From assembly GCA_944388955.1 (NCBI GenBank), contig CALXKJ010000005.1, forward strand, positions 1 to 64,000: a stretch of DNA of 64,000 nucleotides. Reading direction: 5' to 3'. Of the stretch, positions 5,372 to 9,273 are shown piece after piece; within the stretch, counting starts at the first letter, position 1, and each line of letters begins with the position of its first letter. This DNA is from an uncultured Spirochaetaceae bacterium. Lineage in GTDB: Bacteria > Spirochaetota > Spirochaetia > Sphaerochaetales > Sphaerochaetaceae. The notes under the pieces were generated by a model. It had not been told where the DNA came from. It did no database searches and was given only the letters and a program-made list of their open reading frames with translations. The translations under genes were made by a program, and so were the position numbers.

Positions 5372-6289
5372 TCAGCTTTTCCAGAGATCGGTAGAGAGAT
5401 ATCTCTCGCCTGTATCAGGAAGGATGACAGCAATAGTCTTGCCTTTATTCTCTCTAGACACTTCAATCGCAGCGTGGAGTGCTGCACCGGAAGAGATACC
5501 TGAAAGGATGCCCTCAGTACGGGCTAATAGCCGGGCTGTCTCGTACGCGCACGAGGTGCTGACTGTCATTATCCTGTCTATCACACTCCTGTCGAGAACT
5601 GAAGGAATGAAGTTTGCTCCTATTCCCTGTATGCCGTGACTTCCGCTTCTCCCTTCTGAGAGAAGCGGAGAATCCAATGGCTCGACACCGACAACCTCAA
5701 CACTCTTCTTCTCTTTGAGGAAGCGTCCTGCCCCTGATATCGTGCCACCTGTTCCGATACCAGCGACAAATATATCGACATCGCCATCGCTGTCATCCCA
5801 GATTTCCGGGCCAGTCGTCATATAATGAGCCTCCGCGTTGCTTTTATCGGTGAATTGTCCCAGTATCATCGATGACGGGATTGAGTCCTTAAGCTCTTCT
5901 GCTTTCCTTACAGCGCCGTTCATGCCTTCCTTTCCAGGCGTGAGCACAATCTCAGCGCCATATGCCGTGATAAGCATTCTACGCTCAATGCTCATGGAAT
6001 CGGGCATCACGATTATGACTCTATATCCATGGCGCGCACCTATAGCCGCAAGCGCAATGCCGGTATTACCTGAAGTCGGCTCTATAATCGTAGAGCCCTC
6101 CGAGATAAGTCCATTCTTCTCAGCCTTCAGGAGAATACCCTTCACAGCCCTGTCTTTCGCGCTTCCTGTTGGGTTTGCCTTCTCCAGTTTCAGAAGAAGC
6201 CGCGCTTCAAGGCCGAGCGTCCTTCTGAGATTTTCTGCCTCAAATAGCGGTGTATGACCTATTAGCTCATCAATCGATTTATACAGCAT
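5372..6289 (-). CDS. cysK: cysteine synthase (O-acetylserine sulfhydrylase)
   Basis: A 305-residue PLP enzyme of the cysteine synthase/beta-synthase family, which makes cysteine from O-acetylserine and sulfide. Seen: HTPLFEAENL at the N-terminus, the PLP lysine in NPTGSAKDRA, the phosphate/substrate loop SGNTGIALA, and GIGTGGTISGAGRFL. The ATG at 6289 was preferred over a start 33 nt upstream because GGAGG lies about 10 nt before it and the homologous region starts there (MLYKSIDELIGHTP). It overlaps the end of the phosphodiesterase gene by 11 nt, so the two are probably co-transcribed. Confidence 0.9.
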   Translation of the reverse strand: MLYKSIDELIGHTPLFEAENLRRTLGLEARLLLKLEKANPTGSAKDRAVKGILLKAEKNGLISEGSTIIEPTSGNTGIALAAIGARHGYRVIIVMPDSMSIERRMLITAYGAEIVLTPGKEGMNGAVRKAEELKDSIPSSMILGQFTDKSNAEAHYMTTGPEIWDDSDGDVDIFVAGIGTGGTISGAGRFLKEKKSVEVVGVEPLDSPLLSEGRSGSHGIQGIGANFIPSVLDRSVIDRIMTVSTSCAYETARLLARTEGILSGISSGAALHAAIEVSRENKGKTIAVILPDTGERYLSTDLWKS

Positions 6290-7031
6290 CGGAAAGAATC
6301 CTCCTCGCCTTTTCTGTCTCATTCGTTATGAGACCATCAATACCCCACTCAAGGCATTTCTGTATATCCGTATCATCATTGACCGTCCATACATTAATCA
6401 TGCGTCCATTATCCTTTAGCTCACGTACACTCTCATCAGAGAGCATGGAATATGCGGGATGGTAACATTCTATGCCGTTATCTTTCATCTGAGCACCTAT
6501 GTTTCTCAGCGAAGGACCTTCTATAAGAAGTCCAAGCTTTGACGTCACTCCCATTTCCTTAAGCCGGAATACAGAGAGCCAGTTGAATGATGAATAGATG
6601 ACTCTATCAGAAAGGGAGAATGATTCGACCATTCTCACTGTCTTCTCTTCTATCCCTGGATAATACACAGGCATTGTCTTCAGCTCTATATTCACATAAA
6701 GCGATGTCTCTTTGAGCCATGAAAGGAATTCTTCTAGCGATGGTATGGGAGTGAAGCCAAAGGCATCATTTTTTGTCTTTCCCGCATTGATATCCTCAAG
6801 CTCGGAGCGCGTATAGCTATAGACAAAACCATCTTTGCCACATGTCCGTATAAGAGCTTCATCGTGAATAATCATAAGCTCGCCGTCTTTAGAGAGATGG
6901 ACATCAAGCTCTATGCCATCTGCTCCAGCTTCTTCAGCTTTCATGAAGCTGAGCATCGTGTTCTCCGGATATGCTCCGCTATAACCTCTATGTGCGATTA
7001 CATCCATACCCGGATGGTAGAATCGTTTCAT
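6279..7031 (-). CDS. glycerophosphodiester phosphodiesterase
   Basis: A 250-residue GDPD-family TIM-barrel enzyme that hydrolyses glycerophosphodiesters to glycerol-3-phosphate and an alcohol. Catalytic features are all present: AHRGYSG near residue 12, PENT, GIELDVHLSKDGELMIIHDE with the metal-binding Glu/Asp and second His, and INVWTVND near the C-terminus. No signal peptide, so it is probably cytoplasmic. It is first in a two-gene unit with cysteine synthase. Confidence 0.9.
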   Translation of the reverse strand: MKRFYHPGMDVIAHRGYSGAYPENTMLSFMKAEEAGADGIELDVHLSKDGELMIIHDEALIRTCGKDGFVYSYTRSELEDINAGKTKNDAFGFTPIPSLEEFLSWLKETSLYVNIELKTMPVYYPGIEEKTVRMVESFSLSDRVIYSSFNWLSVFRLKEMGVTSKLGLLIEGPSLRNIGAQMKDNGIECYHPAYSMLSDESVRELKDNGRMINVWTVNDDTDIQKCLEWGIDGLITNETEKARRILSDAV

Positions 7032-7119
7032 CTGCGTTGCAATACTTTCCCTTTATTGATATCGCCTTTTCACATTGACTTGTTGACACCTTTTTAGATG
7101 GATGGGATATTATAGATGT

Positions 7120-7203
7120 AAAGAGGCACTGCCGATAGACGGCTGGCCCAAACTCAACTAAATTACATAGCCGCGGTCTGGATCACCGGCGGCTATTTTC
7201 TTG
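7120..7203 (+). ncRNA. putative type I antitoxin RNA, copy 1
   Basis: The promoter is TTGACA (7083-7088) with a -10 around 7106-7113 (GATATT/TATTAT); it differs from the promoter of the other three copies. The RNA begins near AAGAGGCACTGCC; its 5' end can fold GGC-acu-GCCG-loop-CGGC-ug-GCC (7125-7148). It ends in a hairpin with 8-bp stem ATAGCCGC (7167-7174) / GCGGCTAT (7189-7196) followed by TTTCTT. The 3' end is antisense to the last codons and 3' end of the toxin message. Confidence 0.65.
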
Positions 7204-7261
7204 AAGCGATAATCAAACCTATGACTGTGAACACAATCATCAGAATCTGGTAATCGTCCAT
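7193..7261 (-). CDS. putative type I toxin peptide, copy 1
   Basis: A 22-residue peptide, MDDYQILMIVF then TVIGLIIASRK: short polar head, one hydrophobic membrane-spanning segment and a basic tail. This is the pattern of Fst/TxpA/holin-like type I toxins that insert in the inner membrane. GGAGGAGGTG lies at ideal spacing before the ATG. The leader (7262-7340) can form a stem pairing 7307-7313 with 7265-7271 and a small CTCC/GGAG hairpin, covering the ribosome binding site. The promoter is TTGAGC (7370-7375), 17 nt, TACATT (7347-7352) on the minus strand. The peptide is identical to copy 4. Confidence 0.72.
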   Translation of the reverse strand: MDDYQILMIVFTVIGLIIASRK

Positions 7262-7538
7262 GAAGCATCACCTCCTCCCGAGCGGAGATTCCGGATCGTG
7301 CCCGAAGCGATGCCAGCCGCCTACCGCATATAGCAGTGCCATAGGTAATGTATCATATAGCTTGAACATGCTCAATTATTAATATTTTTATTCCAATATC
7401 AAAGCGTATTCCCCAATATTTGCTATTATACTATCTCTAATACATATGAAATTCGATGTATCGATTTTCACTTAGAGGTTATCGAGAGGAAATACACGTT
7501 TGATTGACGACTTAAACACAATGGCTTAATATTCAATA

Positions 7539-7646
7539 AGAGAGAGGCACTGCCGATAGACGGTTGACCTCAGAGTTCGTTAGACGAACAACATTTATTT
7601 GCTATCCGCCCGCTTACTTTCCACGGTTTTTCGGGCGGTTATTTAT
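7539..7646 (+). ncRNA. putative type I antitoxin RNA, copy 2
   Basis: The promoter is TTGACG (7504-7509), 17 nt, TAATAT (7527-7532). The 5' box matches the other copies but reads GGTTGACC where they have GGCTGGCC. It ends in a hairpin with 7-bp stem CCGCCCG (7606-7612) / CGGGCGG (7632-7638) then TTATTTAT. This hairpin lies across the 3' end of the copy 2 peptide gene. Confidence 0.6.
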
Positions 7647-7724
7647 AAAGAGGAGAATTGCTGTTACAAGGGAGAGAGCCCTAGAGGCCAGATCCGCAAG
7701 TTTCAGTAATATATCCAAAACCAT
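7614..7724 (-). CDS. putative type I toxin peptide, copy 2 (different payload)
   Basis: A 36-residue peptide beginning MVLDILLKLADLASRALS, then a hydrophobic stretch LVTAILLFI and the basic tail NNRPKNRGK. It has no sequence similarity to the 22-residue peptides of copies 1, 3 and 4, though both are small, hydrophobic and basic at the C-terminus. AAAGGAG lies 5 nt before the ATG. The minus-strand promoter TTGAGC (7848-7853), 17 nt, TACATT (7825-7830) is the same as in copy 1. The leader carries the shared GGCACTGC box (7811-7818). Confidence 0.62.
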   Translation of the reverse strand: MVLDILLKLADLASRALSLVTAILLFINNRPKNRGK

Positions 7725-7976
7725 ATAAGCTCCTTTCATCATGAAGAATCCATGAAGCCTATACAGGCTCCAGTGTGTTACGACTGGAAGCCAACCGCTT
7801 ACCGTTTACTGCAGTGCCACAGACAATGTATCACACAATTTGATTATGCTCAATTATTGATTATTTCTATTCAAAATTAGAGATTATTGCTCAATATTTG
7901 CTATTGCAGATAAGCTGTGCTGATAGACAATACATGTTTGATTGACGACTTAAACGCAATGGCTTAATATTCAAGA

Positions 7977-8055
7977 AGAAAGAGGCACTGCCGATAGACG
8001 GCTGGCCCGGTTAAGCTAGATGCCGCCCCTAAGGTCCAATTGGGCGGCTATTTTC
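7977..8055 (+). ncRNA. putative type I antitoxin RNA, copy 3
   Basis: The promoter is TTGACG (7942-7947), 17 nt, TAATAT (7965-7970). The conserved 5' hairpin box is at 7984-8007. The terminator has stem GCCGCCC (8022-8028) / GGGCGGC (8042-8048) followed by TATTTTCTT. The stem sequence differs from copies 1 and 4 but the pairing is kept. Confidence 0.65.
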
Positions 8056-8116
8056 TTAAAGCGATAATCAAACCCATGACTGTGAACACAATCATCAGAA
8101 TCTGGTAATCGTCCAT
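8048..8116 (-). CDS. putative type I toxin peptide, copy 3
   Basis: A 22-residue peptide equal to copy 1 except Ile14 to Met and Ser20 to Leu. It has the same GGAGGAGGTG ribosome binding site and leader. The promoter on the minus strand is TTGGGT (8225-8230), 17 nt, TATATT (8202-8207). The stop codon lies in the terminator stem of the opposing RNA. Confidence 0.7.
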   Translation of the reverse strand: MDDYQILMIVFTVMGLIIALRK

Positions 8117-8403
8117 GAAGCATCACCTCCTCCCGAGCGGAGATTCCGGATCGTGCCCGAAGCGATGCCAGCCGCCTACCGCATATAGCAGTGCCACGGG
8201 TAATATATCACACAGTTTAATTATACCCAATTATTGATGTTTTTATTCAAAGATAGGAGCATATTGCTCAATATTTATTATCAAATCTTTTCTCAGAAAA
8301 TGAGAAGAAAGCTATAGAGTAAATATTCGCTTGAAAGAGATATATGCCGATTGACAATACACGTTTGATTGACGACTTAAACGCAATGGCTTAATATTCA
8401 AGA

Positions 8404-8491
8404 AGAAAGAGGCACTGCCGATAGACGGCTGGCCCAGTTAACGAATTATCCGAAGATAGCCGCAGTTGGGACGCTGGCGGCTATTTTCTTG
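8404..8491 (+). ncRNA. putative type I antitoxin RNA, copy 4
   Basis: The promoter is TTGACG (8369-8374), 17 nt, TAATAT (8392-8397). The 5' box is at 8411-8434. The terminator stem is ATAGCCGC (8456-8463) / GCGGCTAT (8477-8484), then TTTCTT. Confidence 0.65.
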
Positions 8492-8549
8492 AAGCGATAA
8501 TCAAACCTATGACTGTGAATACAATCATCAGAATCTGGTAATCGTCCAT
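8481..8549 (-). CDS. putative type I toxin peptide, copy 4
   Basis: A 22-residue peptide identical to copy 1, with one silent change in the Val10 codon (GTA for GTG). The ribosome binding site region reads GGAAGGAGGTG. The promoter on the minus strand is TTGAGC-like at 8658-8663, 17 nt, TATATT (8635-8640). Confidence 0.7.
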   Translation of the reverse strand: MDDYQILMIVFTVIGLIIASRK

Positions 8550-8818
8550 GAAGCATCACCTCCTTCCGATCGGAGATTCCAGATCGTGTCCGAAGCGATG
8601 CCAGCCACCTACCGCGTATAGCAGTGCCACGGGTAATATATCATGCTATTTGAGTATGCTCAATTATTAGTATTTATATTGCGATACTAAGGCATATTAC
8701 TTGAAGATTATTATTAAACCCTTTCAAGAGATGAAAATTGAAGAGAGAATCAATAACTTCAATATCCTTTTCCTTCAGTCATATAATTATCCACGCTTTG
8801 CAATACTGCCTCTTTGAT

Positions 8819-8853: not shown

Positions 8854-9273
8854 ATGTCAAACGGAATGTTCTATGGCCGTAATGGCTCTGATCATCTATC
8901 GGTTTTCCTTGTTGCGATAGCCCTTGTACTGGCGGTCGCGGCATCTGTGATAATGAATGAGGCTGCAAGAGCTATAGTCTCAGCCATCGCGGTAATTCTT
9001 GTCGCGCTCTCACTCTGGAGAATGCTTAGCAAGAATACAGGGAAACGGAGAGCCGAGAATGAGAAGTTCCTCTCATTCTTCAGAGCAGATCCGGACAAGA
9101 AGCGGAAGAAAGAAGAGAAGAAAAGAGCGGAAGCAGAGAGGAAGGTGAGCAAGAAGACTCATAGATACTTCCGCTGTCCAGAATGCAAGAAAGAGCTCCG
9201 CGTCCCGAAAGGAAAAGGGAAGATCAAGATTACATGCCCGCATTGCGGACATCAGTTCATAAAGAAGACATGA
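8854..9273 (+). CDS. membrane protein with C-terminal zinc ribbon
   Basis: A 139-residue protein: two N-terminal membrane helices (about residues 15-35 and 37-57), a long Lys/Arg/Glu-rich linker (residues 60-105), and a C-terminal zinc ribbon with CPEC (about 113-116) and CPHC (about 130-133). It is first of three adjoining genes with the DUF5685 protein and the DnaJ-like protein, an association I know from Firmicutes. Its function is unknown. Confidence 0.75.
   Translation: MSNGMFYGRNGSDHLSVFLVAIALVLAVAASVIMNEAARAIVSAIAVILVALSLWRMLSKNTGKRRAENEKFLSFFRADPDKKRKKEEKKRAEAERKVSKKTHRYFRCPECKKELRVPKGKGKIKITCPHCGHQFIKKT

Follow-up and report, generated by a model that had tools for sequence, protein, structure and literature searches.

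The Fst/par system of plasmid pAD1 consists of convergent RNAs with a shared terminator region and repeats near both 5' ends, and these par repeats are direct, rendering the two RNAs complementary. In txpA/RatA, a type I system of Bacillus subtilis, the toxin terminator is located within the region of the antitoxin gene, at a distance of about 270 nt from the start, and RNase III acts on the duplex (PMC3531473). An RBS held in local structure is described for txpA, bsrE and bsrG (PMC6562991), and pairing of the toxin mRNA 5' and 3' ends, with local 5' hairpins, is established for hok and AapA (PMC6733600). Regarding hosts, a 2025 paper names no groups with type I systems other than Proteobacteria, Firmicutes and Tenericutes, to which it adds a cyanobacterium (PMC12390103). 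Within literature of limited coverage, comprising few subscription papers and some sources in part, we found no report of type I systems in Spirochaetes, of end pairing for Hol-Tox-like units, or of payload exchange between conserved RNA ends.

Here we describe a chromosomal array of cassettes that are probably type I toxin-antitoxin-like units, with insides exchanged at short terminal boxes and a toxin mRNA whose ends would pair with each other. The array lies in a window of 64,000 nt (the whole stretch of DNA analysed) from the 2.1-Mb genome of an uncultured spirochaete, probably of gut habitat. Four tandem cassettes occupy positions 7083-8663, between a glycerophosphodiester phosphodiesterase-like gene (6279-7031, minus strand) and a small zinc-ribbon-like gene starting at 8854 on the plus strand. 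The predicted genes of the first 20 kb look ordinarily chromosomal, not phage; all these names were read off translations.

Each cassette follows the same plan. The plus strand carries a promoter and a box, and a terminator stem is also present; on the minus strand, a promoter is followed by a second occurrence of the box, in the same sense, then by a leader that contains a Shine-Dalgarno (SD) sequence and by an open reading frame (ORF) of 22 or 36 codons. Candidate promoters, a putative terminator stem and the predicted overlap between toxin and antisense RNA are visible in the sequence. The antitoxin-side box, GGCACTGCCGATAGACGG, starts at 7125, 7546, 7984 and 8411 on the plus strand in copies 1-4, and the toxin-side boxes have their 5' ends at 7340, 7818, 8195 and 8628 on the minus strand. 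Copies 1, 3 and 4 (box to box 7125..7340, 7984..8195 and 8411..8628) encode class H, or Hol-Tox-like, peptides of the form MDDYQILMIVFTV(I/M)GLIIA(S/L)RK at 7193-7261, 8048-8116 and 8481-8549, all on the minus strand. The antitoxin promoters of copies 3 and 4 lie at 7942..7970 and 8369..8397 (plus strand). That of copy 1, at 7083..7111 on the same strand, is of another type, TTGACA-17-GATATT (TTGACACC...GATGGGATATTATAGATG), and is 0.82-0.87 identical to those of three cassettes elsewhere (L001, L036 and L100).

Copy 2 differs in its inside. Its antitoxin side begins with a promoter TTGACG-17-TAATAT (7504..7532, plus strand), 0.93 identical to those of copies 3 and 4, followed by the 5' box GGCACTGCCGATAGACGGTTGACCTC (7546..7571), a hairpin GTTCG...CGAAC within the antitoxin RNA (7575..7589), a counterpart of which is visible in other class B cassettes, and a putative terminator stem CCGCCCG...CGGGCGG with a T-rich tail (7606..7646, antitoxin strand). 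The peptide ORF, on the opposite strand (7614..7724, minus), runs at its 3' end into this stem; its start was picked by its SD, and it encodes the 36-residue class B peptide MVLDILLKLADLASRALSLVTAILLFINNRPKNRGK. Upstream on the minus strand lie a class B-type leader with the SD AAAGGAGC (7725..7792), the toxin 5' box GGCACTGC-AGTAAA-CGGTAAGCGG with the start of the arm (7793..7818), and a candidate promoter TTGAGC-17-TACATT (7825..7853).

The cassettes share with txpA/RatA a small hydrophobic peptide and, as predicted from sequence, a convergent antisense RNA over the 3' part of the mRNA, a toxin terminator inside the antitoxin gene region and an RBS in local structure. They depart from it in their spirochaete host and in having inverted boxes common to the 5' ends of the two RNAs, with predicted end pairing; the exchange of payloads, some of them non-Hol-Tox peptides, with no member reaching 23.3 bits, separates them from both txpA/RatA and Hol_Tox. 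Convergent RNAs, a shared terminator region and repeats near both 5' ends recall Fst/par, but the repeats here are inverted, which makes the toxin mRNA self-complementary. Paired toxin mRNA ends with local hairpins at the 5' end, here deduced from sequence and predicted folding, are a likeness to hok/Sok and aapA/IsoA, from which the cassettes differ in peptides and hosts and in a 3' partner that is complementary to the 5' end of the antitoxin itself.

The consensus of the antitoxin box is GGCACTGC-CGATAGACGG-YTGRCCTC and that of the toxin box GGCACTGC-(4-10 nt)-CGGTAGGCGG-YTGGCCTC. The two boxes of a cassette have nearly the same sequence and form inverted repeats in the DNA, so that the two ends of an RNA that starts at the toxin box and extends through the antitoxin-box complement would be able to pair. 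If such end pairing matters, the boxes of one cassette should covary, and their differences should leave G-U pairs on the toxin strand, that is, toxin U against antitoxin C or toxin G against antitoxin A. Own-cassette box similarity and pairing energy were reached by 0 of 5000 permutations, and the similarity also beats permutations within payload class. G-U-compatible differences outnumber their mirror image by 68 to 6 in the arms and by 144 to 8 in the core 9-mer. Only one allele combination, antitoxin GATGAACGG with toxin GGTAGGCGG, would disrupt the helix, and it is absent from all 12 cassettes carrying this antitoxin allele. In a table of 25 columns, the share of paired cells (which are not independent) is 94.0%, compared with 86.8% when permuted, 82.6% on the mirror strand and 23-54% when slid, and 16 columns keep at least two Watson-Crick types. 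Two nearly fixed G/A columns supply much of the G-U excess; without these and the last column, our own count from this table gives about 140 against 36. A second set of 25 distinct Firmicutes and phage cassettes (Lachnospiraceae-family, viral and other Firmicutes copies) behaves in the same way, with z scores of 6.9 for own-cassette similarity and -7.9 for pairing energy (0 of 10,000 permutations) and 74 compatible differences against 4. At the level of aligned sequences, these comparisons demonstrate that the two ends covary cassette by cassette and that their differences favour G-U pairs on one strand. Pairing of the mRNA 5' and 3' ends is thereby backed by covariation, provided that the transcript spans the full cassette.

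A rival account would treat each cassette as a plain txpA/RatA-type unit with 3' overlap only, its boxes serving as 5' stabilising hairpins kept alike by gene conversion between inverted repeats. Both boxes do fold as local hairpins beyond shuffled sequence, and neighbouring short repeats can convert; moreover, txpA/RatA needs no end pairing (PMC6562991). Conversion is strand-blind, however, yet toxin-strand G-U is favoured in all three counts above, and the toxin loop is absent from the antitoxin box. We therefore consider this account rather unlikely. Where the toxin transcript stops bears on the same question, since the shared stem could stop the toxin mRNA ahead of the antitoxin box, which would count against end pairing. 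Just past that box, the toxin strand holds 5.6 T per 10 positions against 2.6 at the mirrored end, and Firmicutes cassettes have CTTTTT-like runs there; this T-rich stretch may be the toxin mRNA terminator, or only the antitoxin's A-rich start.

Another possibility considered is that a shared protein binds the boxes, or that they are ends for DNA recombination or transposition, with no role for RNA pairing. The box is highly conserved, it marks the exchange joint, and the ends are inverted repeats, all of which would fit such a site. Neither role predicts cassette-specific covariation or a strand-specific G-U bias, however; what flanks the boxes is promoter sequence and not arbitrary DNA, and no transposase was seen near this array. 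This makes a purely DNA-level or protein-binding role improbable.

Under the preferred reading of self-pairing ends, the minus strand would yield a short mRNA encoding the small peptide, and the plus strand a short antisense RNA from the convergent promoter. The 5' box of the toxin mRNA (GGCACUGC, a bulge, and CGGUAGGCGGYUGGCCUC) would pair with the antitoxin-box complement at its own 3' end, and sealing of the ends would keep the mRNA stable and silent. The antitoxin 5' end, being approximately a copy of the toxin mRNA 5' end, could form a perfect and stronger duplex with the same 3' site, displace the toxin 5' end and open the mRNA; the toxin/antitoxin duplex might then be degraded, by analogy with RNase III action in txpA/RatA. 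Predicted folds of the full-length toxin RNA are closed end to end in 48 of 49 cases, as must be so for inverted repeats. The predicted duplex of the antitoxin 5' end with the 3' site exceeds the end pairing in 49 of 49; this is expected of perfect pairing, and the antitoxin should therefore win.

Pairing between the toxin leader and the SD region of the same RNA scores z -6.4 in spirochaetes and, more weakly, -1.9 in Firmicutes, and on these predictions translation of the toxin is probably held down locally. Predicted SD occupancy is 0.74 in the full-length RNA and 0.81 after 3' trimming. Trimming thus brings no release of the SD in prediction, and the activation step of hok/AapA, from which the cassettes differ in this respect, is not reproduced. 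The same-sense box could in principle let the antitoxin pair in trans with the toxin SD, given that the CCUC arm is anti-SD-like and that the leader fits its own SD in cis. The own-pair energy between antitoxin box and toxin SD, however, barely passes permutation (z -1.8) and falls to z -0.5 in Firmicutes, leaving this candidate unsupported and very improbable.

Turning to the payloads, 66 spirochaete cassettes with an ORF, drawn from the fetched loci, fall into three classes: about 42 H, 14 B (the class of copy 2) and 10 C by our own count. Class H includes MDDYQILMIVFTVIGLIIASRK, MTDFELLSLVISIISLVVIVVKK and MDDSTYYILVIILMVIGLLIDNRK. The underlying payload lists contain one mis-called peptide (L115) and two upstream starts (L001 and L036), with slight effect only. 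Profile-profile comparison gives a probability of 70% (E 4e-5) for B against C, and these two classes look related; H resembles neither, with 9% against B and 4% against C.

The initial annotation held that copy 2 keeps the flanking promoters and both 5' boxes of its neighbours while carrying an unrelated peptide. Segment identities, read against a background of 0.53 from shuffled promoter sequence and with the copy-4 toxin promoter and octamer values left out, uphold most of this description. The toxin promoter of copy 2 is 0.73-0.78 identical to those of copies 1 and 3, but its antitoxin promoter matches that of copy 1 at only 0.60, near background. The boxes are common to the copies (identity to copies 1 and 3 is 1.00 in the octamer and 0.90 in the box core), except for the 6-nt loop of the toxin box, which differs (0.33). 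The proposed difference in peptide, leader with SD and terminator region is borne out, as identities to copies 1 and 3 are at background level in the leader (0.48), the ORF (0.42-0.43) and the 3' region (0.45-0.48).

The broader proposal, modular replacement between conserved ends, agrees with what related genomes contain, namely the three payload classes between the same ends. In L112/L113, L026/L096, L024/L095 and L018/L085, from other genomes, different payloads are framed by control ends that are very similar on at least one side. Among cassettes with very similar promoters, those with a different payload subclass exceed those with the same subclass by 27 to 8 and by 17 to 4, and in several same-genome pairs with different payloads one or both promoters match while the leader is at background. 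Class B cassettes show the reverse across genomes, with leaders 0.89-1.00 identical and promoters mostly near background. For copy 2, the leader is identical to those of L002 and L020, and the promoters of L020 are unrelated (0.58 and 0.69). This opposition places the joint in or near the box. Judged by segment identities, the unit exchanged is the whole inside, comprising leader, ORF and 3' region, and not the peptide alone; recombination at the roughly 26-nt boxes capping both ends would swap such insides entire. Payload replacement is in our view well supported by these alignments, and copy 2 in all likelihood combines a class B payload with ends that elsewhere frame class H. That copy 2 is instead a diverged copy of the same peptide is scarcely credible: both peptides are short and hydrophobic and occupy the same place in the cassette, and the copy-2 class itself does contain gradual variants (L001 and L082), yet H and B show no homology, no intermediates between them were seen among the 66 cassettes, and identical class B leaders stand beside unrelated promoters in other genomes.

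The peptides themselves appear to be maintained. For class B, pN/pS is 0.32 in frame against 1.16 in frame +1; H classes give 0.22-0.31 in frame, and in frame +1 the values for B, H-DFE and H-YQI are 1.10-1.56. No clear frame contrast is seen for classes C and H-TYY, which have few sequences. In the larger classes, this codon pattern shows purifying selection on the peptide. Against Hol_Tox (PF16935, cut-off 23.3 bits), class H peptides of this genome score at most 11 bits, and Firmicutes peptides with the same box reach 18.8 and 22.1. Classes B and C have no match to Hol_Tox and nothing usable in Pfam, NCBIfam or PHROGs, and are named by no protein or RNA family among those searched. At gathering score, Rfam recovered only a tRNA in the window and none in seven relatives; a chance-level match to cow-rumen-2 (18.1 bits, E 3.4) covers 7301-7398, on the strand opposite the copy 1 toxin leader.

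This genome contains 10 occurrences of the box and none of the reversed pattern. The box was found in 29 of 48 genomes of the genus (reversed-pattern match in 2 of these) and, of 22 genera in the family, in 3. Exact matches in public genomes number 28, five of them Firmicutes and the rest titled Spirochaetaceae or Spirochaetales. In the family of a Lachnospiraceae relative, the whole-cassette pattern is found in 21 of 397 genomes, and the reversed control in 0. We put at roughly even odds the fuller picture of a two-phylum cassette whose antitoxin and toxin mRNA share their 5' sequence by design, in which the mRNA seals itself, the antitoxin wins by perfect Watson-Crick pairing where the mRNA's own helix is weakened by G-U pairs, and recombination uses the identical ends as joints for exchanging unrelated payloads. 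The shared, self-pairing end is the more surprising part, beyond modularity. If true, Spirochaetes would join the type I hosts, with many copies per genome, and the paired end boxes would offer a sequence signature that finds these units even when the peptide is not known beforehand, a need that has been named as an obstacle to their discovery. Competition of a type I antitoxin and its mRNA for one site becomes testable, as does toxin swapping under retained control via the conserved cassette ends.

Viral contigs in IMG/VR carry the same cassettes with Hol-Tox-like peptides (L072:11694 and L072:12992 on one contig, L148 and L149). Phages or prophages may carry cassettes between hosts; a tblastn search with a Hol-Tox-like peptide against phage records gave no match. 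Beyond the window array, this genome holds cassettes at three loci: a second tandem array of three (L013:1-2900, G000:C12), also between ordinary chromosomal genes, with two DFE-type H peptides and one class B; L012, with one C and one B; and L011, with a diverged B. A lone box-like GGCACTGCCGATAGAAGACAG at L014:961-981 (G000:C22:2561-2581) is a weak match that lacks surrounding promoters or cassette structure and was left out as a remnant or a chance match. Several loci, L029, L060, L061, L110 and L114 among others, have an antitoxin box for which a search over 520 nt found no partner toxin box; decayed or cut-off cassettes seem to account for some of them, and a few end at a contig edge. Finally, the H-type peptides of L108, L109 and L057, for example MNDYEVLDIIISVIGLVISAIAIGITIANKNNRH, exceed the 22-23 aa of other H peptides by an added tail and are possibly an older form.
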